Shown here piece by piece: positions 14,912 through 37,652 of a DNA stretch of 46,912 nt. The stretch's first letter is position 1, and each line of letters opens with the position of its first letter. The notes beneath the pieces were generated by a model. That model ran no database searches, was not told the origin of the DNA, and worked only from the letters and a program-made list of their open reading frames with translations. The DNA is from Ignavibacterium sp. (GTDB taxonomy: Bacteria > Zixibacteria > MSB-5A5 > GN15 > PGXB01), in the NCBI GenBank assembly GCA_020724775.1, contig DYGG01000020.1:1-46912 (forward strand), written 5' to 3'. Both the position numbers and the translations under genes were made by a program.

Positions 14912-15132
14912 ATCATCTCCTATTGCGAGATTTCTTCTTTATCCTTGATGAAAGCTATACGATGGGGTTGGTTAAGACAAGGAAATTCGGATGGTGAGGG
15001 GTAGCGTCGTTGATTGGGGGAAGCGCGGTGGCTTAGTCCCGGAATGTCAAAACCCACACTCGTTACTCGCGACGGACAGGGAACTCGGGGGGACTTTGAC
15101 CTGCGGGGCTACCTTGATTGATGAAGAGAAGA

Positions 15133-15213
15133 GCGGCAGGTCACAATTTTACGCCGCAAGAGACGGTGATGAGTCTGCTTTGCAGATGGCAGCGTAAAAT
15201 CAGGACCTGCCGC
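15133..15213. repeat. 81-bp element with 22-bp terminal inverted repeats
   Basis: The arms 15133-15154 and 15192-15213 are inverted copies matching at 19 of 22 positions; the only differences are three central bases. Each arm starts GCGGCAGGTC at the outer end and reaches ATTTTACGC at the inner end. The 37-base interior contains a small hairpin, TCTGC/GCAGA. There is no T-run and no coding potential, so this looks like a miniature mobile or REP-type element. Confidence 0.75.
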
Positions 15214-15243
15214 AACGGTAGCAAGAGAAGTGCGTCAGTTCAC

Positions 15244-15413
15244 GCTCCGACAGGAGTCGGAGCTAAGAACTGCCGCAACCGGGGGAATCATCCCCCGCGA
15301 AGGCGGGGGAAGATTATGTCGAAACCGCAAGGGTTTCGACCTACGTCTTGCTTCCCCACGTGCACTACTGGCATGACGGTAGCCCATTGTAGGGGCAGGG
15401 TTCACCCCTGCCC
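15244..15413. repeat. Palindromic repeat cluster C
   Basis: Four hairpins: GCTCCGAC/GTCGGAGC (15244-15251 with 15256-15263), TCCCCCGC/GCGGGGGA (15291-15298 with 15303-15310), GTCGAAACC/GGTTTCGAC (15318-15326 with 15332-15340) and GGGCAGGG/CCCTGCCC (15393-15400 with 15406-15413). The third is the same unit as in clusters A and B, including the GACCTACG tail. In all three clusters a C-rich/G-rich palindrome lies beside the GTCGAAACC unit. Confidence 0.85.
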
Positions 15414-15553
15414 GCGCAGGCTGCCGCCGCCGGCTCGCAGACACCTGCCTAATATCTGAACAGAGTCGCGGGAAGTTATTCAGCCGTATGGCAGTTATGC
15501 CGATAGGAGTGATGATAATCGTCTTTAGGTTACCTGCTTTTTCGGGGAGATAG

Positions 15554-16927
15554 ATGACCGGCAAAATCCTGGTAGTTGATGATGAGCCATCGATGCGCGA
15601 TTTCATGGAGATACTTCTTGCCAAAGAAGGATATGAGGTCGATTCGGCGGAATCGGGGGAGGATGCGGTAAAGAAGACCAGTAAGGGGAACTATGACCTG
15701 GTGATTGCCGATATGATGATGCCGAAAATGAGCGGGCTGGAGCTTCTCAAAGAAGTCAAGAGTTTCAATCCCGACACAGATTTTATCGTGATGACGGCGT
15801 TCGCGTCGGTCGATACCGCAATCGAAGCGATGAAACAGGGGGCGCTCGATTATATCAGCAAGCCGTTCAAAGTCGATGAGATAAGACTGGTGATTGAGAA
15901 ATCAGTCAGCCGCAAGAAACTTAAGAAAGAAAACGAAACGCTCAAAAGGCAGATATACGAGCAGTTTTCCCTGGAGAATTTCATCGGGCAGTCGAACGAT
16001 ATCATCGAACTGAAAAAACTGGTGCAGAAAATCGCGCCGACCGATTCGACGGTTCTGATACGGGGGGAATCGGGCACCGGCAAAGACTTAATCGCGCGGG
16101 CGATACATTCTTTGTCGGAAAGAGCGGCCGGTCCCTTTGTCACCATCAATTGCGCGGCCCTGCCGGAAACGCTTCTGGAGTCGGAACTGTTCGGGTACAA
16201 GAAAGGGTCGTTCACCGGCGCTATCAAAGACAAGGATGGTCTGTTCAAAGTTTCCGATGGCGGAACTTTCTTTCTCGATGAGGTCGGAAATACGTCACCG
16301 GCGATTCAGGTAAAACTGTTGCGGGTGCTGGAAAATAAACAGATTACTCCGGTGGGCGAGACCAAACCGATAGAGGTGGATGTCCGTTTGATAGCGGCGA
16401 CCAACGCCGACCTGGAAGAGGATGTGAAATCGGGGCGGTTTCGCTCCGACCTTTTTTATCGATTGAATGTAATCCCGGTGCATATTCTGCCGTTGCGAGA
16501 GCGGGTGGAGGATATCCCGCTTCTGGTGACTCATTTCGTCGCCAAATATTGCCGTCGGGGCGAACTGGAATTAAAATCGCTCAGTCTGGAAGCGATGAAA
16601 GCGCTGAACAGTTACGACTGGCCCGGCAATGTGCGGGAACTGGAGAACTGCATTGAGCGCGCGGTTCTTCTCTCGAAAGGACAGACTATTGAGATTTCGG
16701 ATTTTCCGGCGAAAGTAAGCGAGGGTCGCAAATCGACGATAGTCTCGCGAGAGAACCCGGAAACGCCGACCCTGGAGTCGATTGAAAAGGCTTATATTTA
16801 TTTTGTGTTAAACCAGGCGCAGGGGAAAAAGTCGAAGGCGGCGGAACTTCTGGGAATCGACAGTTCGACCTTATACCGGAAACTAGAGAAGTATAAACTT
16901 CTCGAAAAGGACAAGAAAGAGTCTTAG
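15554..16927 (+). CDS. Sigma-54-dependent response regulator, PilR-like
   Basis: NtrC-class transcription activator (457 aa) with three domains. A receiver domain (1-120) has the phospho-acceptor D53 and conserved K103. The sigma-54 AAA+ domain (about 143-370) has Walker A GESGTGK (171-177), the sigma-54 contact loop as GSFTGA (218-223) and Walker B LDEVG (241-245). A C-terminal Fis-type helix-turn-helix covers SKAAELLGIDSSTLYRKLEKY. The usual loop is GAFTGA; the Ser form is, from memory, the one in Pseudomonas PilR. Two type IV pilin genes with sigma-54 promoters lie immediately downstream, so pilin control is the likely role. No sensor kinase (PilS) is adjacent, so its partner must be elsewhere. 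Confidence 0.92.
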   Translation: MTGKILVVDDEPSMRDFMEILLAKEGYEVDSAESGEDAVKKTSKGNYDLVIADMMMPKMSGLELLKEVKSFNPDTDFIVMTAFASVDTAIEAMKQGALDYISKPFKVDEIRLVIEKSVSRKKLKKENETLKRQIYEQFSLENFIGQSNDIIELKKLVQKIAPTDSTVLIRGESGTGKDLIARAIHSLSERAAGPFVTINCAALPETLLESELFGYKKGSFTGAIKDKDGLFKVSDGGTFFLDEVGNTSPAIQVKLLRVLENKQITPVGETKPIEVDVRLIAATNADLEEDVKSGRFRSDLFYRLNVIPVHILPLRERVEDIPLLVTHFVAKYCRRGELELKSLSLEAMKALNSYDWPGNVRELENCIERAVLLSKGQTIEISDFPAKVSEGRKSTIVSRENPETPTLESIEKAYIYFVLNQAQGKKSKAAELLGIDSSTLYRKLEKYKLLEKDKKES

Positions 16928-17093: not shown

Positions 17094-17516
17094 ATGATAG
17101 TAATGAGATCATCCAAGGGCTTCACGTTGATTGAGTTAATGATAGTAGTGGTGATTATAGGGATTCTGGCGACGATGGCGATTCCGCGGTATTTCAATGT
17201 GGTGACGAAGAATAAGCAGGCGGAAGCGAAAATGATACTTAAGCAAATATATACCAATGAAAGGACTTACCGTCAACAAGGTTCCGGTTACTATATACCT
17301 GGGGCGGCCGCGAGCGCGGCCAGTCCGACGGCATTTCAGCAGATTTGGGTGAGCATAATGGCTTCGTCGCGTTATACATACACGATAGCAGGGAATGCCA
17401 ATTCCTTCACGGCCACGGCGACGTCGAGTATTCTTGATGATGACGCTACCGTCGATGTCTGGACGATAGATAATTTTGGAACATTGACTTGCGTGAGCGA
17501 TGATTCCAATTTGTAA
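17094..17516 (+). CDS. Type IV pilin (first paralog)
   Basis: Prepilin of 140 residues. A nine-residue basic leader ends in Gly before the processing site KG/FTLIELMIVVVIIGILA, with the conserved Glu at mature position 5 and a hydrophobic assembly helix. The globular part has a KQAEAKMILKQIYTNERTYRQQ helix, then an Ala-rich region and the C-terminal SILDDDATVDVWTID block shared with the second pilin. It has only one cysteine (in LTCVSDD), so it cannot form the C-terminal disulfide loop its paralog can. Codons include many ATA, GTA and GCG, unlike the paralog, suggesting lower expression or a minor-pilin role. AGAGGT precedes the ATG at 17094; a second ATG at 17103 lacks a ribosome site. Confidence 0.93.
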   Translation: MIVMRSSKGFTLIELMIVVVIIGILATMAIPRYFNVVTKNKQAEAKMILKQIYTNERTYRQQGSGYYIPGAAASAASPTAFQQIWVSIMASSRYTYTIAGNANSFTATATSSILDDDATVDVWTIDNFGTLTCVSDDSNL

Positions 17517-17818: not shown

Positions 17819-18250
17819 ATGTTTTCCAAGTTTCACAATCGCCAGAAGGGTTTCACCCTTATCGAGTTGATGATTGTGGTGGTCATCATCGGTATTTTGG
17901 CCGCTCTGGCTATTCCCCGTTTCATGACTGCGACCACCAAGTCGAAGCAGTCGGAAGCGAAAGGTATTCTGAAACAGGTTTATACCATGCAGAGAACCTA
18001 TCGCCAGCAGAATAATACTTACTGGGGACAGGGCACCACGGCCAGCGCCGCCGCCCAGAACGCTTTCGCGCCGATTGGCGTGGAGATAATGGGTGCCTCG
18101 ATTTATACCTATACCATTACCACGGCGAACGCCACCAACCTGCTGGTCACCGCGACCTGCTCGATTCTTGATGACGACGCCACCGTCGATACCTGGACGA
18201 TTAACGACCAGGGTCTATTGATCTGCACGTCGGACGACTCGACTACTTAA
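17819..18250 (+). CDS. Type IV pilin (second paralog, probable major pilin)
   Basis: 143-residue prepilin with an 11-residue leader ending KG before FTLIELMIVVVIIGILAALAIPRF. The mature E5 is present. Its body parallels the first pilin: SEAKGILKQVYTMQRTYRQQ, then AFAPIGVEIMGAS, and a C-terminal SILDDDATVDTWTINDQG. Two cysteines (TATCS and LLICTSDD) bracket that block and could form the D-region disulfide. Codons are strongly biased to ATC, ACC, GTC, CTG and CGC-type forms, a sign of high expression, and the AGGAGGT ribosome-binding site is near perfect. I infer this is the main pilus subunit. Confidence 0.95.
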   Translation: MFSKFHNRQKGFTLIELMIVVVIIGILAALAIPRFMTATTKSKQSEAKGILKQVYTMQRTYRQQNNTYWGQGTTASAAAQNAFAPIGVEIMGASIYTYTITTANATNLLVTATCSILDDDATVDTWTINDQGLLICTSDDSTT

Positions 18251-24197: not shown

Positions 24198-24224
24198 TCG
24201 AAGTATCGCTGGAGACTATTGATT

Positions 24225-24251
24225 CTGCCTCAAAAAGAGCATTTGAGGCAG
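24225..24251. repeat. Perfect 10-bp inverted repeat
   Basis: CTGCCTCAAA (24225-24234) and TTTGAGGCAG (24242-24251) flank a seven-base loop in the 102-base gap between the second methyltransferase and the GND-repeat gene. No T-run follows on the plus strand. It could be an operator, a weak attenuator or chance. Confidence 0.5.
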
Positions 24252-24299
24252 AGAGCGAGAAAAAATGTTATTGCTACCGGCATTGACCGGCTCTTTATT

Positions 24300-26246
24300 A
24301 TGTATATGCGTTTCTTGACATTTCTGTTAATTCTCATGAGCGGTATGGGAGTAACCGTTGCTCAGAATCTGCCCGACACGGTTTATGAACGTCAGGCTCT
24401 GGAAAAACTGATGGCTCTTATGAATCTTCAATTGACCGACCTGACTTTCCGGGACGATTATACCAAGAAAGATTCTTTCCGGCTGGCGACGGTGGCAAAT
24501 TTGATGCGTCAGCCGTACGGCATGATTCATTTCGTTGAGCAGTTCAAAGACACCTGTCGCAATCAGAAGCCGGAGCCGATATTCTCTTTTGCGCTGGAGC
24601 AAATCGGCAAAGAGACCCAGCAGTTTCGCTGGGAGGCGGCCGACCTGTCGCAGGGAGACAGTCTCGACCGGGGGATGAACCTGTTTTATCGCTCGCTGGA
24701 GTTCAATCGGCTTCTGCGCAAGGCGGATAAGTATCTCTACAAGGTTTTTCCGCCGTCGGCCGACTCGGCCTTCGCCTGGCTGACGCCGGAGGAGAAGAGT
24801 TTTTTGATGAAGCAGTTTAAACAACTTCTTCTGGAAGATACCCTTGACCAGTCCCGTTCCCCCCAGCAGATAGATTCCATTCAGGACGCGGAAGAGGAAT
24901 ATATTAAACAGTTTGTAAGGTTTGGCGCAAAGATACGGAAAGATATAATCGTTTCCGCCGGCGTAGCCGCCGCAATAGAACTGCATCGGGAGATAAATCT
25001 TCTGCTGGATGAAATAAAAGCGGGTCATCTGTCGGCGCGAGGCATACTCTCCGACACCGCGGTTCTGCCGCCGCGCACGGGAATCGCTCAGTATCTGGGA
25101 CGGAAAGAAGGCTGGGCAATTGGCGGTCCCGAAGATAATTACTACAAGGGGGATTCCCATTTCATAATCGATTTTGGCGGAAACGACCGGTATGACCTCG
25201 TTTATAATCCCGATAATCCGCACGGGACGATTATTATCGACCTTGCCGGCAATGATATCTATAACGGTCTGACCGATTTTACGGTTGGCTCCGGCGGCAT
25301 GAATGTGGGACTTCTGTTCGATATTAGCGGCGATGATATTTATTCCGGAAAAGACTTTTCGCTGGGGAGCGGCTTTTTCGGATTTGGATTGCTTTATGAC
25401 GCCGCCGGAAATGACCGGTATTACGGCGATACCCATGTTCAAGGAGCGGCGACTTTTGGAATCGGCTCGATTCTTGATTTGGGCGGCAATGACGTCTACT
25501 CTGCGGCTCTCTACGGACAGGGATTCGGAGGACCGGAAGGAGCCGGATTTATCGTTGATTATCTGGGGAATGACAATTATTTGGCGGGGAATAAGTATAA
25601 AGATGTTTTGCGGTATGATGACCATTATCTCTCTTTGTCGCAGGGGTTCGCCTACGGGTTTAGGCCCTATGTCTCAGGCGGTATCGGCGCCATAATTGAC
25701 TACAAAGGGAATGACAATTACGTTTCAGATATTTTCGCCCAGGGAACCAGTTACTGGTGGGCGCTGGGGATGATATATGATTCCAGCGGCAACGACCAGT
25801 ATGTTTCATATCAGTATGCCCAGGGAGCGGCAACTCATATGACACTGGGGATACTGCTCGACCAGAGCGGCAACGATTTCTACCGAGGAAAGGGATTGAT
25901 GCAGGGATGCGGGCATGACTACTCTTGCGCCATAATGCTTGACCGGTATGGCGATGATATCTACCATGCCGTTGACCTCTCGCAGGGGGCGGGCTCGGCG
26001 AACGGTTTTGGCATTATGCTCGATGCTCGGGGGAATGATGCTTATTATGTAATGAAGACGAATAATACCCAGGGATTCGGTGATGCCCGACGGGATTTTG
26101 GTTCTATCGGGCTCTTTCTCGATTTGAGTGGTACCGACAGATATGATGGTAATGGCGGGGAGAACAGATTCTGGCAGACGCCCTCAAAGTGGGGTGGTGG
26201 ACTGGATGAATTCATATTACCCGATTCGGCGGTGAGCGGCTTATGA
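24300..26246 (+). CDS. Secreted GND-x-Y repeat protein (predicted beta-solenoid)
   Basis: 648 residues from the ATG at 24300, chosen because it starts a clean signal peptide (MYMRFLTFLLILMSGMGVTVAQ); the open frame extends to a TTG at 24219 without one. After the signal comes a helical domain of about 220 residues. Next are 12 repeats of about 30 residues built on G-(N/D)-D-x-Y, such as GGNDRYDL, AGNDIYNG, SGDDIYSG, GGNDVYSA, SGNDFYRG and SGTDRYDG, interleaved with glycine-rich G(A/S)G-x-GFG-x-L-D strands. The acidic GND loops could bind calcium. I do not recognise the family; a right-handed beta-solenoid is predicted from periodicity. It overlaps the HEAT-repeat gene by ATGA. Confidence 0.82.
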   Translation: MYMRFLTFLLILMSGMGVTVAQNLPDTVYERQALEKLMALMNLQLTDLTFRDDYTKKDSFRLATVANLMRQPYGMIHFVEQFKDTCRNQKPEPIFSFALEQIGKETQQFRWEAADLSQGDSLDRGMNLFYRSLEFNRLLRKADKYLYKVFPPSADSAFAWLTPEEKSFLMKQFKQLLLEDTLDQSRSPQQIDSIQDAEEEYIKQFVRFGAKIRKDIIVSAGVAAAIELHREINLLLDEIKAGHLSARGILSDTAVLPPRTGIAQYLGRKEGWAIGGPEDNYYKGDSHFIIDFGGNDRYDLVYNPDNPHGTIIIDLAGNDIYNGLTDFTVGSGGMNVGLLFDISGDDIYSGKDFSLGSGFFGFGLLYDAAGNDRYYGDTHVQGAATFGIGSILDLGGNDVYSAALYGQGFGGPEGAGFIVDYLGNDNYLAGNKYKDVLRYDDHYLSLSQGFAYGFRPYVSGGIGAIIDYKGNDNYVSDIFAQGTSYWWALGMIYDSSGNDQYVSYQYAQGAATHMTLGILLDQSGNDFYRGKGLMQGCGHDYSCAIMLDRYGDDIYHAVDLSQGAGSANGFGIMLDARGNDAYYVMKTNNTQGFGDARRDFGSIGLFLDLSGTDRYDGNGGENRFWQTPSKWGGGLDEFILPDSAVSGL

Positions 26247-27187
26247 TGACAGGATACCGGCAGATATTGTTAGGGCTGGCTTTTCTTATAAGCGTCAGCG
26301 CAGAGAACACGTGGAGCCAGGAGTCCCGCTCCTCTGAGATTGACAGGAAAGTCGATTCGCTGTTTGTGCTGGCGTCATCAGGGGAAGTGATGCATCGGGA
26401 CCTGGTGCAGCCGGCGACAGATTCCCTGGCGGCGATGGGGGCAGCGGCAGTGCCGCGTCTGATTGAAATCTATGACACGCAGGATGCGCGGGAACGTCAG
26501 ACCATAAACAATATACTGGTGAAAATCGGCAAGCCGGCGGTACCGTATCTGGTTAATTCGCTGACGCTTGATAATGCCGAGCAGGTGGGGCGGATTTGCG
26601 CCACATTAGGAGAGATTAAAGACACCTCCGCGGTTGAGGGCTTGATAAAGGCGGTAGTGCATGCCGACTGGCGGGTTCGCTCAGAGGCGGTTGGTTCACT
26701 TGGAAAGATAGGCGACTCACGGGGGAACGGGGCGATGACGTATCTTCTTCTGGATACGGTGGGACTGGTGCGGAAATCGGCGGCGGTCGCGGCCGGTGCA
26801 CTGTTATTTGAGCCGACCGTTAAGACTCTGGTAAATATGCTGGCGGATGATTTTTATGGGGCTCGTCTCTGTGCCCTGGAAGCGCTGGTGAAATTCGGCG
26901 CGCATGTGGTGGATGCGATTGCCGACTCGATAAATTCGGAAAGGGGATTGATTGGTAACCTGGGATGCCTGGCGCTGGGAAGAATCGGCGGCGACAGCGC
27001 CGTTGCGGTTCTGGTGGGGCAACTGGACTCGCCGGATTATATTCGCCGGGCGATGGCGGTGGAAGGTATCTTCGAAACCGGCTCCTCTTTCGGCTGCGGA
27101 TTTGTTGAACTTATGAAAGAGCGAGAAACTCATCCGATAGTGCAGCAGTATATTCGCAAGGTTATGGACAAACATGCTGGGCGATAA
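26243..27187 (+). CDS. Exported HEAT-repeat protein
   Basis: 314 residues with an N-terminal signal (YRQILLGLAFLISVSAENTWSQ) and then tandem HEAT/PBS-lyase-type repeats: AAAVPRLIEIYD, KPAVPYLVNSLTLDN, TSAVEGLIKAVVHADWRVRSEAVGSLGKIGDS, and AVAVLVGQLDSPDYIRRAMAVEGIF. Such repeats form a curved superhelix used for protein binding. No catalytic motif is visible. It starts in an ATGA overlap with the GND-repeat gene, so the two are probably exported partners. Its end overlaps the YprB-like gene by 14 bases. Confidence 0.85.
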   Translation: MMTGYRQILLGLAFLISVSAENTWSQESRSSEIDRKVDSLFVLASSGEVMHRDLVQPATDSLAAMGAAAVPRLIEIYDTQDARERQTINNILVKIGKPAVPYLVNSLTLDNAEQVGRICATLGEIKDTSAVEGLIKAVVHADWRVRSEAVGSLGKIGDSRGNGAMTYLLLDTVGLVRKSAAVAAGALLFEPTVKTLVNMLADDFYGARLCALEALVKFGAHVVDAIADSINSERGLIGNLGCLALGRIGGDSAVAVLVGQLDSPDYIRRAMAVEGIFETGSSFGCGFVELMKERETHPIVQQYIRKVMDKHAGR

Positions 27188-28385
27188 ACTCAACCGTTTC
27201 TCCAGGCAGATACAAAGCCAGCCGGATGCCGTCATTTCCAAACCGGGAACCAACCGTTACCGTCACGCGGCGGAATTTTTCGGCGGCGAACTGGTGAGTT
27301 CCGACGGGGGTGTCTTTGTCAGGATTGTTACCGACTTGCCCTCGCTTTTCTCTCACGGGGATTACCGCCTCGCCGAGGTACTTGAGTATTATCCGGTCAT
27401 GAGCGGGGGGAGAATTCTCAATTGCGGCGATAATTCTCTCGATTTGTCGCGGCTGCTATTCTTTGACATGGAAACAACCGGTCTTTCCGGCGGCTCCGGC
27501 ACCGTTCCTTTTCTTATAGGTTTCGGCTCCCTCTCAGCGTCCGGTTTTCAGGTGCGGCAGTACCTTCTGCCGGACTATCCGGATGAAGCGGCGATGCTGG
27601 AAACGGTGCGTCGTGAGATAACCAAGGATTCCATACTGGTCAGTTATAATGGCCGAGCATTCGACCTTCCGATATTTAGCGACCGTCTGGTACTGCATCG
27701 TATTGAGAGAAACCTGCAGTTTGCCGGGCATATTGACCTGCTTCACCCGGTGCGGCGGTTGTACAAGAGACGTCTTCGTGACTGTTCCCTGGGGAATATC
27801 GAAAGAGAGGTTTTAGGATATTTCCGTTTTGATGACATCCCCGGATATCTGGTGCCATCGGTCTATTTCAACTGGCTGGCGAACGGAGAGACAGAAGAGT
27901 TGCGGCGGGTCAATAAGCATAATCTGGACGATATTGTTTCGATGCTGTTTATCATGCATCATGTGGCGCGACTGGCGGAGAATCCGTCGGGACAGATTCA
28001 ATCCAGCGATGACCTTTATTCATTCTGTCGCATCCTGGAGCGATCCGGCGACAGGGAGGGGCTTTATAATTTGATGGAAGCCTCGTTCGAGATGCTTGAG
28101 CAGGAGAATCGGTTTGATATATTATTCTCGCACGCGCTGTCGTATAAGAGAGGGGCCCAGGTGGAAAAAGCCCATACACTCTGGCTAAAAATTGCACAGA
28201 CGGGGGCGCCGGAGGCGTACCCGGCGCGGCTGGAATTAGCCAAATATTACGAGCATCGCCTGAAAGATTTTGCGGGGGCGCTGAAATTCACTCTGGAGGC
28301 AAGGTCTGAGTGCCCCCAAAGTCCCCGTCATCGGGAGGCAATAGAAAAGCGGATAAACCGTCTCCACCGCAAACTCTCCGGCTAA
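27174..28385 (+). CDS. YprB-like RNase H-fold 3'-5' exonuclease with TPR tail
   Basis: 403 residues. The central domain (about 93-260) has a DnaQ/RNase H-like nuclease pattern: FFDMETTGL with D98 and E100 (Exo I), SYNGRAFDLPIF with D164 (Exo II), and KHNLDDIVSM with H249 and D252/D253 (Exo III). This matches YprB (RNase_H_2) proteins, presumed nucleic-acid exonucleases. The C-terminal 140 residues are helical, with TPR-like units (YKRGAQVEKAHTLWLKIAQ and YEHRLKDFAGALKFTLEA). No signal peptide is present, so it is cytoplasmic despite following two exported proteins. Confidence 0.87.
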   Translation: MLGDKLNRFSRQIQSQPDAVISKPGTNRYRHAAEFFGGELVSSDGGVFVRIVTDLPSLFSHGDYRLAEVLEYYPVMSGGRILNCGDNSLDLSRLLFFDMETTGLSGGSGTVPFLIGFGSLSASGFQVRQYLLPDYPDEAAMLETVRREITKDSILVSYNGRAFDLPIFSDRLVLHRIERNLQFAGHIDLLHPVRRLYKRRLRDCSLGNIEREVLGYFRFDDIPGYLVPSVYFNWLANGETEELRRVNKHNLDDIVSMLFIMHHVARLAENPSGQIQSSDDLYSFCRILERSGDREGLYNLMEASFEMLEQENRFDILFSHALSYKRGAQVEKAHTLWLKIAQTGAPEAYPARLELAKYYEHRLKDFAGALKFTLEARSECPQSPRHREAIEKRINRLHRKLSG

Positions 28386-28423: not shown

Positions 28424-28452
28424 GGTCATATGGCGGTTAGGAGCATATGACC
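28424..28452 (+). promoter_or_regulatory. Inverted repeat enclosing the HDOD start site
   Basis: GGTCATATG (28424-28432) and CATATGACC (28444-28452) are exact inverted copies around an 11-base loop. The loop carries the TTAGGAG ribosome-binding site, and the right arm contains the ATG (28447) of the HDOD gene. In RNA it would sequester the start codon in a stem. An operator or chance are alternatives. Confidence 0.45.
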
Positions 28453-29760
28453 CAGGAAATCTTTTACAAGATACTCAACGACCATAAAGAACTCTCGTCG
28501 CTTCCGCAGGTTCTAATGGAAGTGATACGGGTCTCCTGCGAGCAGGATTCCTCCGCCAACGACATTGCCATCATCATCATGAAAGACCCGGCCCTGACGG
28601 CGAAGATTCTTCGGGTCGTCAATTCCCCCTTCTACGGACAGATACGGAAAATTACTACCGTCAATCAGGCGGTGGTGACGCTGGGGATGAGAACGGTGAC
28701 GGCGGTGGCGCTATCGGCATCGATTTACGATAAGATGAACAAGGTCGATTCCTCGATTGACCGGAAGCGCTTCTGGCGTCATTCGCTGGAGGTCGCCATT
28801 GCGGCGCGCCTGATTGCCGAGACCGTAAAATATGAGCCGGCCGAAGAGGCCTTTGTCGCCGGGTTATTGCACGAAATTGGGACGTTGGTTCTGGAAGCGT
28901 CATACCCGGCCGATTTTCGACGAGTCTGGAAATTGATTGAGATGGGGGAAAACCAGACAGCGGTCGAAGAGCGGACCTGGGGCACCAATCATGCCCGGGT
29001 GGGGCAGTTTCTTCTGGACCAGTGGGGAATACCGAAGAATATCGGGGAAGCGGTGGGGAATCATCATACAGTGATAGACCACGGCAACAAACTTCCGGAG
29101 CATCAATTATCACAGATAATCAACTTAGCCAATCAATTATCCAAGTTTCGGGTTTACAATATGCCGCCGCCGGAATCGGCGCAACTGGAGAATCGGGATG
29201 TAATTGCGGCCAATCTGGAACTGAGCAATGCCGCTATCGCCAAGATTGAAGAGCATCTGATAAGCGAGATAATCAAGGAATCGAATTATCTCGAAATTGA
29301 GATAGGGAGTGTGGAAGAGATTCTGGTTGACGCCAATCGGCTTCTATATAAACAGTTTCTGATGGTGGAAAATCTGCTGCGGGAAAACCGGATAATGCAG
29401 CAGCAGATAGCGCGCGACCAGATGAAGAAAGCGGCCCTGGAATCGCTCAAGGCGATCGCCACGACCTTCAGCCATTATATCAACAACGCCACCGCCGCCA
29501 TTCTGGGACGGGCGCAGTTGATGGAACTGGCGATTACCAAGGGGGAGATAATCGACCAGAAAGGAATCGCGGCGCTCTCCGCCGGAACAATCGTGGACGC
29601 CGTCGAGACAATCTCCACCATTCTGGAAGAACTCAAGAAAATGACCGCTTTCGAGACCACCCTTTATCATGACGACACCTATATTCTTGATGTCGAGTCG
29701 AAAATCCGCGAGAAACTGGACAATCTGAACCGCACCCGGGTGCCGGCCGGAATTAATTAA
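28447..29760 (+). CDS. HDOD-domain signalling protein with C-terminal histidine-kinase-like H-box
   Basis: 437 residues, cytoplasmic. Residues about 12-210 form an HDOD domain: LPQVLMEVIRVSCEQDSSANDIAIIIMKDPALTAKILRVVNSPFYG, GMRTVTAVALS, AGLLHEIGTLV and NHARVGQFLLDQWGIP. A linker of about 100 residues with coiled-coil character (YKQFLMVENLLRENRIMQQQIARDQMKK) leads to LESLKAIATTFSHYINNATAAILGRAQLM. This matches the dimerisation/phosphotransfer helix of histidine kinases, with H343 in the H-box position. The protein ends about 70 residues later, with no N, G1 or G2 ATPase boxes. It therefore cannot autophosphorylate and may be a receiver of phosphate or only a dimeriser. Confidence 0.87.
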   Translation: MTQEIFYKILNDHKELSSLPQVLMEVIRVSCEQDSSANDIAIIIMKDPALTAKILRVVNSPFYGQIRKITTVNQAVVTLGMRTVTAVALSASIYDKMNKVDSSIDRKRFWRHSLEVAIAARLIAETVKYEPAEEAFVAGLLHEIGTLVLEASYPADFRRVWKLIEMGENQTAVEERTWGTNHARVGQFLLDQWGIPKNIGEAVGNHHTVIDHGNKLPEHQLSQIINLANQLSKFRVYNMPPPESAQLENRDVIAANLELSNAAIAKIEEHLISEIIKESNYLEIEIGSVEEILVDANRLLYKQFLMVENLLRENRIMQQQIARDQMKKAALESLKAIATTFSHYINNATAAILGRAQLMELAITKGEIIDQKGIAALSAGTIVDAVETISTILEELKKMTAFETTLYHDDTYILDVESKIREKLDNLNRTRVPAGIN

Positions 29761-29824: not shown

Positions 29825-32236
29825 TTAGATATTCCACCAGTAATTGGCTTTTATCAGGAAAGTATTTACCTGGGGAGTGCGAAAGAGGACTTTAAGGTCG
29901 CGGTTGAAGCGGAAATTATTGATATCACTGTCGTAGCCGTCGCGGGCATGGGTCCAGACGACAAAGACCGCCGAACCGGGGCGGTACTCCCAGCGCAGCA
30001 CCAGATTGACGTTGAGTGATTTGTAGTTGAAATCATTGCGGGCGAAATCTATGGCATAGGAAGCGCTTAATTCTTCGAATCGCTCCGGCGAGGTCAGTTT
30101 CATGAAGCGCTCATAGTCACCGGCAGAAAAGTAAAACTGCGTATAGGACTGGATGGTCAGGTCGCGGGTAAAAGTATAGGTGCTGCGAAGAGTGATACTC
30201 AATTCATCATGTTCGAGATGCCCAAAAACGGGCCAGTTATCCTCTCCGGTACCGACCCAGAAATGGCGGTCACGGGAACTTTCGTAGCCGCCGCCCAGCG
30301 AAAATTCCAGCATGGAAACGGGACGGTAATCGAGCCAGAATTCATAAACACTCCACCTTCCGCTGCGACCGGTACCCCAGATATGGGTCAACTCAAAGAA
30401 ATACCTCTCAGCATGGTTGGTATTCATTCCAATCCAGTAATCCTGACCGCGCGGTTTCAACCAGAGACCGTTGCGACGGGTTTCCAGGTCATCGTATTGA
30501 CGGTCGTCAGTAGAGGCGCCGCTGTACAGCCACCAGCCGTTGGTAAAACCGACATTGCCATTAAACTCCCGTCCGGTATAGATGCGGAAGCCATCCATAT
30601 TCTTATTATGATAGAAGGTGGTGTTAAATCGGAGATATCGGATAAAAGAGAATTTCTTATTGCTGCGCAGATGAATCCAGAATGACCGTCCCCGGGCGGA
30701 ATTGCGGTTGAGATAACCGAGGCGATTCCAGTCCACCCGGCGGTCATAATAGTCAGCCATAACATTGCCGCGGATAACCCGCCCGCCAACTTTTTCGATC
30801 ATCGTGTGCCAGGCGTAACCGCCGGTACCGGGTCCGTTGTTAGTGGCGGCTAAGGTACCGGCCCCAAAATAGTCGTTATTAAGAAAATAGACTCGTCCGT
30901 CGGCGGCGGCGGTGTAGGCGTCGGGACGGTCTTTCTGATTGGCGCTGGTAAACATGCCGCCGATATAGGACAATCCGCCGATATCCTGCTTTAGACGGGC
31001 GACCGTGTAGTTGGCAAGCGGCTCCACGACCGCTTCCTCGGTCGTGGAGGCGGCTACCGGCATATATTTGGTCTTTTCTTCCTGGGTGGTGGCGTTGAGC
31101 AGACCGATAGAAGTGCCGCTTCCGGTTTTGCCGGTCACTTTGAGAGCGCTGAGGATAGTGGTATTGCGCGGGTAATCGACATAATAGGCGGCGCTATCGA
31201 TATTGCCGCGCGGCGGGCGGCCGATACGGCGCGAATAAAAGAGGTTAAAGGCGGGGAGACGAAAAATATCGGAGCCTTCGAGGAAGAACGGTCTTTTTTC
31301 CTCGAACTGAGTTTCATAAGTGCCGAGGTTGATAATCGCTTCATCGGCTTCGACCTGCCCGAAGTCGGGGTTGATGGTGGCATCAAGAGTAAGCGCCGAG
31401 GTCAGTCCCATTTTCAGATCGCCGCCGATATTGGAGACAAAGTCCCGGCCGTTTGAATTTCCGAGACTTTTCGGCTCGGTAATGCCGTAAGAGACAAAGT
31501 AAGGAAGAGTCTCAAGCCGTCCCGGCGGCTCAATACTTTTTATTGCGGTAAGATGACCATAGCGGCTGACACCGACGGCCTCATGACTCGGCACAAACTG
31601 CCAGCGGTTGTCTTCCTTGTTGCGCGGCAGGTGGCGCGACAAATTCAGCCCCCAAACATATTCATTAACCCTGGAAAAGCGAAGCGCCGAGTATGGGATT
31701 TTGAATTCAGCCGTCCATCCCCAGTCGAAGGATTTCACATCGGCGGTCCAGACCGCATCCCAACTATCGTCATCCTGGTCGTTGTTATACAGGAAAATGT
31801 CAGAGAGAACGCCGCTTACATTGACGGCAAAATAGTAGGCAGTGCGATGGTCGTGATGGGAGTCGATACGAACGGCGACCTTGTCCGATTCTGTGAATCG
31901 GTCACGGCGAGTCAGTTGCCGGACGATTTTTTCCGGGTTTCGGTCATAACACCAGAAGCCGACATAAAGGGCTTCATCATCGTACAGGATTTTCACCAGG
32001 GTTGATTCGGTCGCCGGTGCCCCTTCCTCCGGTTCTGTCTGCCGGAAGCCGGTAATCGGTTCTGCCTGACTCCAGGAAGGCTCATCCAGTAGACCATTTA
32101 TATCGATATTTCCGTCCGCGCGAAAGGCATAAGCGGTTTTGACTGTGTCAGCCTGCACCTGCGCCAGAGAGGACGATGCCGAAAAAGAGAATGTGATAAG
32201 CGCGAATAAAGTTAGACCGGGCGTGCAAATTCTCAA
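29825..32236 (-). CDS. DUF5916 outer-membrane protein with N-terminal CBM9-like domain
   Basis: 803 residues. A signal peptide (RICTPGLTLFALITFSFSASSSLAQ) is followed by a CBM9-like beta-sandwich (about 38-220: DGNIDINGLLDEPSWSQAEPITGF, YDDEALYVGFWCYD, WTAEFKIPYSALRFS). Next is a DUF5916 domain (NLSRHLPRNKEDNRWQF, ATINPDFGQVEADEAIINL, EEKRPFFLEGSDIF), then many amphipathic strands up to the end, fitting an outer-membrane barrel. The family function is unclear, possibly polysaccharide or protein processing. The start is TTG at 32236, decided by GGAGGAG six bases upstream. It is a single-gene unit, convergent with the HDOD gene 64 bases away. Confidence 0.88.
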   Translation of the reverse strand: MRICTPGLTLFALITFSFSASSSLAQVQADTVKTAYAFRADGNIDINGLLDEPSWSQAEPITGFRQTEPEEGAPATESTLVKILYDDEALYVGFWCYDRNPEKIVRQLTRRDRFTESDKVAVRIDSHHDHRTAYYFAVNVSGVLSDIFLYNNDQDDDSWDAVWTADVKSFDWGWTAEFKIPYSALRFSRVNEYVWGLNLSRHLPRNKEDNRWQFVPSHEAVGVSRYGHLTAIKSIEPPGRLETLPYFVSYGITEPKSLGNSNGRDFVSNIGGDLKMGLTSALTLDATINPDFGQVEADEAIINLGTYETQFEEKRPFFLEGSDIFRLPAFNLFYSRRIGRPPRGNIDSAAYYVDYPRNTTILSALKVTGKTGSGTSIGLLNATTQEEKTKYMPVAASTTEEAVVEPLANYTVARLKQDIGGLSYIGGMFTSANQKDRPDAYTAAADGRVYFLNNDYFGAGTLAATNNGPGTGGYAWHTMIEKVGGRVIRGNVMADYYDRRVDWNRLGYLNRNSARGRSFWIHLRSNKKFSFIRYLRFNTTFYHNKNMDGFRIYTGREFNGNVGFTNGWWLYSGASTDDRQYDDLETRRNGLWLKPRGQDYWIGMNTNHAERYFFELTHIWGTGRSGRWSVYEFWLDYRPVSMLEFSLGGGYESSRDRHFWVGTGEDNWPVFGHLEHDELSITLRSTYTFTRDLTIQSYTQFYFSAGDYERFMKLTSPERFEELSASYAIDFARNDFNYKSLNVNLVLRWEYRPGSAVFVVWTHARDGYDSDINNFRFNRDLKVLFRTPQVNTFLIKANYWWNI

Positions 32237-35402: not shown

Positions 35403-37652
35403 ATGTTTCATTTCAAACTTTCCCTCATACTGCTTGTCTCGATTTTAGTCGCCTTGTCGGTGGCGCAGGCTCAACCGCCGATTCAGGTAGTCCCCTTCTG
35501 GCAGTCGGCGGAAGAAGATGTCTATTCCACCGGAATGGTCTGGCGGGATATGAACCGGGATGGGTATATCGATGTCTGCTTCTCCAATGGAAATGATATC
35601 GTAAGAGCCCGCAATTTTATCTACCTATCGCGATACGGAACGCTCCCGGCAAGCGGCTCCTGGTTTTCGAATGATGTTGAATATTCGGGGCATTGTGCGG
35701 TCGGAGATATTGATGACAACGGATTTCCGGAACTGGCCGTTTCGAATTTTCTGGGACAGGGGGGATTTCTGACCGCTAATCGTATGGCGCAATATTCTAA
35801 TCCTTTTGGAATTCCGGGAGTGGTCCCGTCCTGGCGCAGCGCCGACAGTATGAACAGTTTCTCCTGCGCTTTCGGCGACCCGGATGGCGACGGCGACCTC
35901 GACCTGGCGGTCGCCACCGGCGAGGGGTATAATGCGGTCAGGCAACGTGACCGTATCTATTTTAACGCGGGCGGGAGTCTTGCCACCCTTCCCGGCTGGC
36001 AGACAAACGCGCTGACGCAAGCGATGGATGTTACCTGGGGTGATGTCGATAACGACGGCGACCTGGATTTGGCTTTCTGCTATGATGACGATGCCACCGC
36101 CGTCTATTATAACCACAACGGCGTTCTGGAATCATCTCCTTCATGGCAGTCGAATATTGTCGAATCGGGGAACACTCTGATATTCGGAGATGTCAACAAT
36201 GACGGCTGGCTCGACCTGATTGTCGCCTATAATTTTCAACTGGGTGGAAACGGCTTTTTTCGCGTCTATTTCAATAATGGCGCCGGAATGTTAAACAGCA
36301 GTCCCGGCTGGGAATCCTCGGACGGCGGTTATGGTTCAGCCGTGGCGCTTTATGATTACGATAACGACGGGGATGATGACCTTGCTGCCGGAAGATGGTG
36401 GGATGAGCCGCGCCTTTATGAAAATATCGGGGGGACATTTACCGGCAGTCCGGTCTGGCAGGCGGCTCTTTCGATGGTCGTAGAAGAATTTGCCTGGGTC
36501 GATATAGACGGGGATGGGGTGGAGGAATTTTCCGAAACAATTTATGCTGATGGGAAGAAGTTGTTTTATACCGAAAGACATCCGCTTTTCTCGCTTGATT
36601 CAGTCCTGGTCGATGGCGCCATTCTTCCGATAAATCAATATTGCTCCGACCCAATATCTGGATGGGTATCGCTGGCGTCGGCGCCGCTCGATTCGATAGT
36701 TCTGCATTACAAATACTCATTTAAGAATGACCTGACCGTGGCTAACTGGGATACCTATAATTTCGCTTTTGCCAATACCCGCCGGCCTTTTGTCGATTTT
36801 TATGCCGATACAACTTTCGGCTGGGCGCCGCTTCAGGTCAACTTCAGTGACAGTTCCCTCGGGGCAACTGACTGGCACTGGCAATTTGGGGACGGCGCCG
36901 TAGCGACGGTACCGACCCCAACGCACACTTATCTGGATGGCGGGGCTTTTGATGTCTCGCTCCAAAATCTCCTCCCTGACGGGCCTCATAATCGCACCAG
37001 GATGAAGATGATAATTACATTCGCCGACACCATTTCGTTCCCGAGCCTGATTGTTGCGCCGGGAGAAACGGTGAAAATTCCGGTGCGGCTTCGTAACTGC
37101 CACCCGATGAAACGCATTGTTCTTCCGATTTCGTATGCCGGGAGCATCGATTTGACCTTCACCGCCTATGACACGGTCGGCTGTCGCTCTTCGTATTTTG
37201 ACCAGGTTCAGTTAGCCAATTATGTTCCGGCGGAGAAGAAACTCGCCTTTATCCTGGTGCCAAGCCTGAGCGGCGCGAAGCCGGAATTGCCTCCCGGTGA
37301 CGGTCCGGTTATCAATCTCTATTTCCAGCATTCAGGGGGAAGCGGGGTCGGCACGCTTGATTCTTCCACGGTGCAGGGAAAGACGCTCTCTTTTGAAGCC
37401 GGTTACGTCACTTATCTGCCTTATGTGAAGAAGGGATTCTTGACCGACACGCAGTATGCCAGGGGGGATGCCAATCATGACGGCAAAATCAACATTCTTG
37501 ATGTTACCTATATCATCGCTTACCTGTTTAAGTCAGGACCGCCGACCGGCTTGTATGAAGGGGACGCCGATGCCAACGGAAAGATAAATATTCTGGATGC
37601 GACTTATCTTATCAGTTTTCTCTATAAAGGGGGACCGCCGCCGCAGGGGTGA
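35403..37652 (+). CDS. Secreted FG-GAP/PKD protein with cohesin-like region and C-terminal dockerin
   Basis: 749 residues. After the signal peptide (KLSLILLVSILVALSVAQAQ) come seven calcium-type FG-GAP/VCBS motifs: DMNRDGYIDV, DIDDNGFPEL, DPDGDGDLDL, DVDNDGDLDL, DVNNDGWLDL, DYDNDGDDDL and DIDGDGVEEF, as for one seven-bladed propeller. A PKD domain follows (DFYADTTFGWAPLQVNFSDSS, WHWQFGDG). Next is a beta-sandwich region (about 540-680, SLIVAPGETVKIPVRLRNCHPM) that resembles a cohesin. The last 62 residues (688-749) are a dockerin with two loops, GDANHDGKINILD and GDADANGKINILD. The gene follows the preceding one by 25 bases behind GAGGAGGGAG, so both probably share a transcript. Confidence 0.88.
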   Translation: MFHFKLSLILLVSILVALSVAQAQPPIQVVPFWQSAEEDVYSTGMVWRDMNRDGYIDVCFSNGNDIVRARNFIYLSRYGTLPASGSWFSNDVEYSGHCAVGDIDDNGFPELAVSNFLGQGGFLTANRMAQYSNPFGIPGVVPSWRSADSMNSFSCAFGDPDGDGDLDLAVATGEGYNAVRQRDRIYFNAGGSLATLPGWQTNALTQAMDVTWGDVDNDGDLDLAFCYDDDATAVYYNHNGVLESSPSWQSNIVESGNTLIFGDVNNDGWLDLIVAYNFQLGGNGFFRVYFNNGAGMLNSSPGWESSDGGYGSAVALYDYDNDGDDDLAAGRWWDEPRLYENIGGTFTGSPVWQAALSMVVEEFAWVDIDGDGVEEFSETIYADGKKLFYTERHPLFSLDSVLVDGAILPINQYCSDPISGWVSLASAPLDSIVLHYKYSFKNDLTVANWDTYNFAFANTRRPFVDFYADTTFGWAPLQVNFSDSSLGATDWHWQFGDGAVATVPTPTHTYLDGGAFDVSLQNLLPDGPHNRTRMKMIITFADTISFPSLIVAPGETVKIPVRLRNCHPMKRIVLPISYAGSIDLTFTAYDTVGCRSSYFDQVQLANYVPAEKKLAFILVPSLSGAKPELPPGDGPVINLYFQHSGGSGVGTLDSSTVQGKTLSFEAGYVTYLPYVKKGFLTDTQYARGDANHDGKINILDVTYIIAYLFKSGPPTGLYEGDADANGKINILDATYLISFLYKGGPPPQG

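Follow-up and report, generated by a model that had tools for sequence, protein, structure and literature searches.

What kind of protein is specified by a gene whose product repeats an acidic glycine turn 12 times, and why is this gene translated together with one for a HEAT-repeat protein? We addressed this question for gene A (648 aa; positions 24,300–26,246 including the stop codon, + strand), which lies in a 46,912 nt stretch of DNA from a Zixibacterium (hereafter, the window) and whose assignment rests on its reading frame, its repeats and the conservation of the family in its phylum. The explanation that we favor, and to which we give even chances of being correct, is that the products of both genes form an exported solenoid–HEAT complex, probably stabilized by Ca2+, with a conserved column of residues for binding or catalysis; both the metal and the role are predictions.

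Repeat units and predicted fold of protein A

Gene A starts at the ATG in position 24,300, which opens a signal peptide (residues about 1–22, positions 24,300–24,365, + strand) recognized in the sequence; a longer frame (24,219–26,246) begins with TTG. A hydrophobic N-terminus occurs in 75 of the 76 homologs examined. Residues 26–250 (24,375–25,049, + strand) make up a domain that is helical in an AlphaFold2 model, as had been proposed in an earlier reading of this DNA (the first-pass annotation), and whose P72 is invariant across paralogs. This domain is followed by a predicted beta-solenoid of 12 D-x-x-G-x-D-x-Y coils (residues 271–636; 25,110–26,207, + strand), delimited from the model and the motif count.

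The 12 D-x-x-G-x-D-x-[YF] units start at residues 291, 314, 341, 367, 393, 420, 467, 494, 521, 548, 575, and 608, with spacings of 23, 27, 26, 26, 27, 47, 27, 27, 27, 27, and 33 residues, that is, mostly 26–27; by comparison, 10,000 composition shuffles of A contained at most three units (mean 0.12). The 12 near-regular repeats of the first-pass annotation are therefore real, although their proposed GND-x-Y center only holds in part: it is exact in nine of the 12 turns of A (GDD occurs in two and GTD in one), whereas among 372 motif cells from 31 orthologs D6 and G4 were present in 100%, Y8 in 99% and D1 in 97%, and the Asn of GND in only 43%, so the conserved signature is D-x-x-G-x-D-x-Y. All 12 turns are kept across three phyla, and a Q-G ladder can be seen in the sequence of most coils. 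Identity between units averages 28%, or 14% without the four motif residues (units 6, 11, and 12 trimmed to about 27 residues for the calculation), indicating that the repeat is old and diverged.

The AlphaFold2 model of A, built from 31 orthologs, is a beta-solenoid with a mean pLDDT of 88.1 and a pTM of 0.90, and a second model, made for an A-HEAT fusion that shares 39% identity with the window protein, shows the same strand pattern. According to PMC11795689, AlphaFold2 over-predicts beta-solenoids for perfect repeats; at 28% identity, the units of A are unlike those for which the program invents solenoids. We are thus confident in the prediction that A is a beta-solenoid, as anticipated by the first-pass annotation. 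The best solved fold found with VIA-align was region IV of MpAFP (PDB 3p4g; Z 18.6, rmsd 3.1 Å, 261 residues, 16% identity), followed by TibA (Z 14.4, 5.2 Å, 244 residues) and SRRP (Z 12.2, 4.0 Å, 266 residues); with Foldseek alone, the match to MpAFP was not significant (E 0.68). Pectate lyase A (1jrg; Z 7.5, rmsd 3.9, 215 residues) scored lower, and the RTX-type structure 9p0c was a weak match (Z 4.7, rmsd 4.2, 145 residues). Sequence searches of solved structures with A, or with its alignment, returned nothing meaningful, and a viral fold library returned nothing better than E 0.8.

Region IV of MpAFP is described in PMC3492233 as a right-handed Ca2+-bound beta-helix with the repeat xGTGNDxuxuGGxuxGxux, belonging to a 1.5-MDa surface adhesin. 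Like A, it has one acidic G-N-D turn per coil and, as predicted for A, an extended beta-helix, but its coils have 19–21 residues, as opposed to 26–27 in A, and its sequence match to A is not significant. The Thr/Asx ice face of MpAFP was not found in A, because Thr precedes the turn Gly in 1.6% of the 372 cells and Asn in 43%, which leaves A without a Thr/Asx array. The RTX beta-roll (PF00353) would likewise resemble A in its Asp-bearing Gly turns and, probably, in its use of calcium. However, the RTX nonapeptide GGxGxDxUx occurs zero times in A, in agreement with the first-pass annotation, and RTX proteins, according to PMC6891781, leave the cell by the type I route with a signal at the C-terminus and have no N-terminal signal peptide, contrary to the hydrophobic N-terminus of A and its homologs. 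The MpAFP-like turn chemistry and the two invariant rows of Asp make bound cations likely in A. Judged by its model, the solenoid of A represents a new type of repeat among acidic-turn beta-helices.

Comparisons with family collections point in the same direction, and bear out the first-pass view that no described family has this layout, since no characterized repeat family matches A by sequence. Pfam searches with A (E up to 10) and with 31 orthologs (E up to 0.1) gave no family; A also matched no NCBIfam model and none of the PADLOC defense families (E up to 0.001), and PHROGs had no family for A or its HEAT partner. The HEAT partner showed a weak similarity to PADLOC HEAT-ARM_XIII (E 1.6e-4). 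Our literature search found no description of such a solenoid–HEAT pair.

Pairing and fusion with the HEAT protein

The HEAT-repeat gene (314 aa; 26,243–27,187, + strand) adjoins gene A, with which it shares the ATGA overlap of stop and start codons (26,243–26,246) noted in the first-pass annotation, and has a single homolog in the genome. Its product matches PF13646 (E 6e-22; 78 bits against a curated cut-off of 27.7), in agreement with a fold search of the fusion model, whose 50 listed matches were HEAT-like or other helical-repeat chains and so concern the HEAT half. The partner is thus a true HEAT superhelix, as are the HEAT_2 and PBS-lyase-like proteins (PF13646, PF03130; e.g., CpcE/CpcF), from which it differs in its export and in its link, by proximity or fusion, with a beta-solenoid; NCBIfam lyase-type models scored far below their cut-offs with it. 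A hydrophobic N-terminus was found in 73 of 74 HEAT partners and, given the signal peptide of A, both proteins are exported.

In 75 of the 80 named loci, HEAT is the gene that immediately follows A, with the same orientation; these 80 are the best of 186 loci that encode a relative. Four of the other five (L084, L086, L090, and L103) end 63 to 373 bases after A, and the fifth (L053) is interrupted by a run of 100 N, seen at the same place in L013. Likewise, HEAT was next to A in 29 of 30 loci from a genome search, a set that shares genomes with the 80 named loci. Clustering of 23 loci across phyla yielded one cluster present in 23/23, corresponding to the A-HEAT frames, and other clusters that include antisense frames. 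The homologs of A are therefore nearly always accompanied by HEAT, as the first-pass annotation would predict, although some paralogs of A have no HEAT neighbor.

Both genes are also found fused in frame. In the phylum labeled WOR-3/TA06, all 20 fetched loci that had been picked for long frames encode single A-HEAT polypeptides, and among 12 loci picked for shorter frames a separate HEAT neighbor was present in three and none was found in nine. From the Eisenbacteria-labeled phylum, two of 15 fetched loci encode single polypeptides of 964–966 aa and 10 contain separate A and HEAT neighbors; of the remaining three, two run into the end of the contig and the third is a paralog with a putative PDZ domain. 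A partial A-HEAT fusion occurs in CP070766 (G005). This single-contig record is joined by 100-N runs (L013, L043, L044, L053) and contains A in three pieces, one of them continuing in frame into HEAT; an interpretation as three copies of A subjected to phase variation was rejected, because the pieces are cut by the 100-N gaps.

No hydrophobic segment or second export signal was present in the eight fusion linkers checked, whereas 73 of 74 separate HEAT proteins begin with one, so A and HEAT most likely meet outside the cytoplasm. The model of the natural fusion L144 (964 residues, built from 50 rows that include 21 fusions) has a pLDDT of 88.6 and a pTM of 0.83, with a low-confidence linker at residues 645–690. 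Since A accounts for some 63% of the fusion, a HEAT domain that floated freely would be expected to bring the pTM lower; the value of 0.83 suggests that in the model HEAT has a preferred place. In 37 loci, the correlation of distances between A and HEAT (r 0.93) was the highest among neighbor pairs, although just slightly above that of HEAT and RNase_H_2 (0.91); A and RNase_H_2 showed 0.88, and pairs with HDOD, 0.75–0.80. Together, the near-constant adjacency and the natural in-frame fusions indicate that A and HEAT very probably work as one exported complex, giving strong support to the association put forward in the first-pass annotation.

Distribution and genomic neighborhood

The A family was found in 104 of 110 genomes of the host phylum with at least 80% completeness, six having no match, and in 75 of 78 high-quality genomes; these and the following genome tallies include paralogs as well as A. 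It was also present in 57 of 60 relatives (whole genomes), in 15 of 16 genomes of the Eisenbacteria-labeled phylum, and in 43/60 and 56/80 genomes, from overlapping samples, of the WOR-3/TA06-labeled phylum. Named contigs with the family belong to Candidatus Zixiibacteriota, and others are labeled Eisenbacteria, TA06, WOR-3, and Calditrichaeota; plasmid records contained no match. The genome containing A has a paralog with an in-frame TAG (L032, contig C47 of G000, 15,055–16,086), whose copy in sister genome G001 (L033) is open and encodes 716 aa. Another paralog (L156, 3,284–5,980) has an extra N-terminal stretch before the helical domain and the solenoid, with a weak match to a PDZ family (PF17820, E 2e-4) that lies below the curated cut-off.

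Gene order in the window is a sigma-54 response regulator (15,554–16,927, + strand; PF00158, E 7e-70; in 36/80 loci), two type IV prepilins, five genes (some of them of the glycosylation and methyltransferase types), A, HEAT, an RNase_H_2 (YprB-like) gene (27,174–28,385, + strand; PF13482, E 4e-37; in 52/80 loci), and an HDOD gene (28,447–29,760, + strand; PF08668, E 7e-59; in 45/80 loci). Also near the A-HEAT pair are genes for a DUF5916/CBM9-type protein (29,825–32,236) and for an FG-GAP protein that also has PKD and dockerin domains (35,403–37,652). In the WOR-3/TA06-labeled phylum, an M6-peptidase-like gene is found just upstream of the fusion in four of six loci (L194–L197), preceded by a PDZ gene in two of the six (L195 and L197); the domain scan covered both PDZ genes and, for the M6 cluster, a single representative. 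In locus L199, the fusion is immediately followed by a gene with an MlaD domain (PF02470, E 5e-11) and has, upstream, the start of a PilC/GspF-like gene and a two-component pair, recognized by eye with no family search. Neighboring genes thus differ between phyla, and only A and HEAT are constant.

A conserved column and the candidate roles of the probable complex

Conservation outside the turn motif was examined in two alignments, one with 34 sequences of A that come from three phyla and average 37% identity per column with the window protein, and another with 14 family members that included paralogs, some without a HEAT neighbor. Six sites stood out, all in the + strand. R455 (25,662–25,664), H513 in coil 8 (25,836–25,838) and the Tyr of Y485-W486 in coil 7 (25,752–25,757) were invariant in both alignments (34/34 and 14/14), with W486 in 32/34. 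For H539-D540 in coil 9 (25,914–25,919), both residues were present in 34/34 and D540 also in 14/14, with H539 changed to W in some paralogs; N568 in coil 10 (26,001–26,003) was conserved in 32/34, and R598 in coil 11 (26,091–26,093), in 34/34. In coils 7, 8, and 9, respectively, W486, H513, and D540 precede the first Asp of the next turn by eight residues, so by their register they should stack. Since paralogs without a HEAT neighbor keep residues of the column, it is not simply a docking face for HEAT. Conservation and register suggest that R455, Y485/W486, H513, H539-D540, N568, and R598 could form a putative binding or catalytic site common to the superfamily.

The exported complex that we favor would be assembled as follows. 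A and HEAT would be its two halves, each crossing the inner membrane by its own signal peptide. In A, some 12 coils would make up a rigid beta-solenoid, in which the two acidic residues of every D-x-x-G-x-D turn would stack as parallel rows of Asp along one edge, presumably requiring cations, most likely Ca2+. The HEAT superhelix, whose association with A is supported, may dock on the solenoid as a protein-binding or assembly arm, and the column would provide the site for binding or catalysis. Within this bacterial order, the frequent location of the complex beside the sigma-54 regulator and major prepilins would make a role in the envelope or linked to pili the likeliest.

Alternatively, A may be an enzyme with a beta-helix fold whose substrate is a polysaccharide or peptide of the envelope; the conserved column would then be its active site (R-Y/W-H-D) and HEAT, its targeting arm. 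We regard this reading as rather doubtful. It agrees with the invariance of R455, Y485, H513, and D540 in the 14 members, paralogs without HEAT included, with the M6-peptidase-like and PDZ genes preceding fusions in the WOR-3/TA06-labeled phylum, and with the weak PDZ match of one paralog; however, A matches no enzyme family in Pfam or NCBIfam, pectate lyase A scores only Z 7.5, and the neighboring genes vary by phylum.

Regular solenoids often serve as spacers, and the Q-G ladder of most coils looks structural, as expected if A acted passively in the envelope, as a scaffold or adhesin, and its conserved residues did no more than hold the fold. This is unlikely, in that both length and sequence are variable in ordinary spacers and adhesins, whereas in A the turns, and also residues outside the repeat such as GHD and R598, are kept in all three phyla.

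It is similarly improbable that A is an exported, Ca2+-dependent factor for the tip or assembly of type IV pili, functionally equivalent to PilY1 and chaperoned by HEAT. The window contains two prepilin genes (17,094–17,516, PF07963 E 6e-10; and a second copy at 17,819–18,250, PF07963 E 2e-11; both + strand), which are the two best of nine PF07963 matches in the genome, although five genes separate them from A. Among the 55 loci with 2.5 kb of upstream sequence, a prepilin in the same strand was present within 3 kb upstream of A in 26, against 0/61 on the downstream side, and the PilC/GspF-like start and two-component pair seen by eye in L199 fit the same idea. Conversely, the upstream link is found in 23/32 loci where A has at least 47% identity and in only 3/23 below this value, and no prepilin was found near A in 14 loci scanned from the Eisenbacteria- and WOR-3/TA06-labeled phyla; the pilin link of A is not ancestral. 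PilY1-type proteins (PF05567), which are Ca2+-dependent pilus proteins, are exported repeat proteins encoded near pilins, as A is in this bacterial order, but PF05567 is unmatched in A (E up to 10), whose predicted fold is a solenoid; a search for PilY1 gave 0/21 with controls also silent, and has no bearing on its absence.

Finally, an ice-binding or RTX protein like MpAFP is disfavored and highly improbable, because A shares with its closest solved fold the GND turn, but neither the Thr/Asx array nor the coil length, and lacks the RTX nonapeptide.

Tentatively, the favored solenoid–HEAT complex could stand for a larger group of enzymes or receptors, exported beta-solenoids stapled by metal that would form a new superfamily with no characterized counterpart and be core to three or more bacterial phyla. 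The invariant R-Y/W-H-D column on successive coils would then be the active site, and HEAT, separate in some phyla and fused in another, would deliver substrates or partners. The natural fusions allow two hypothetical genes to be treated as a single defined complex, and the residues of the invariant column make a short list for testing. The near-universal presence of this unannotated family in the high-quality genomes of an uncultured phylum indicates that it probably does something central there.
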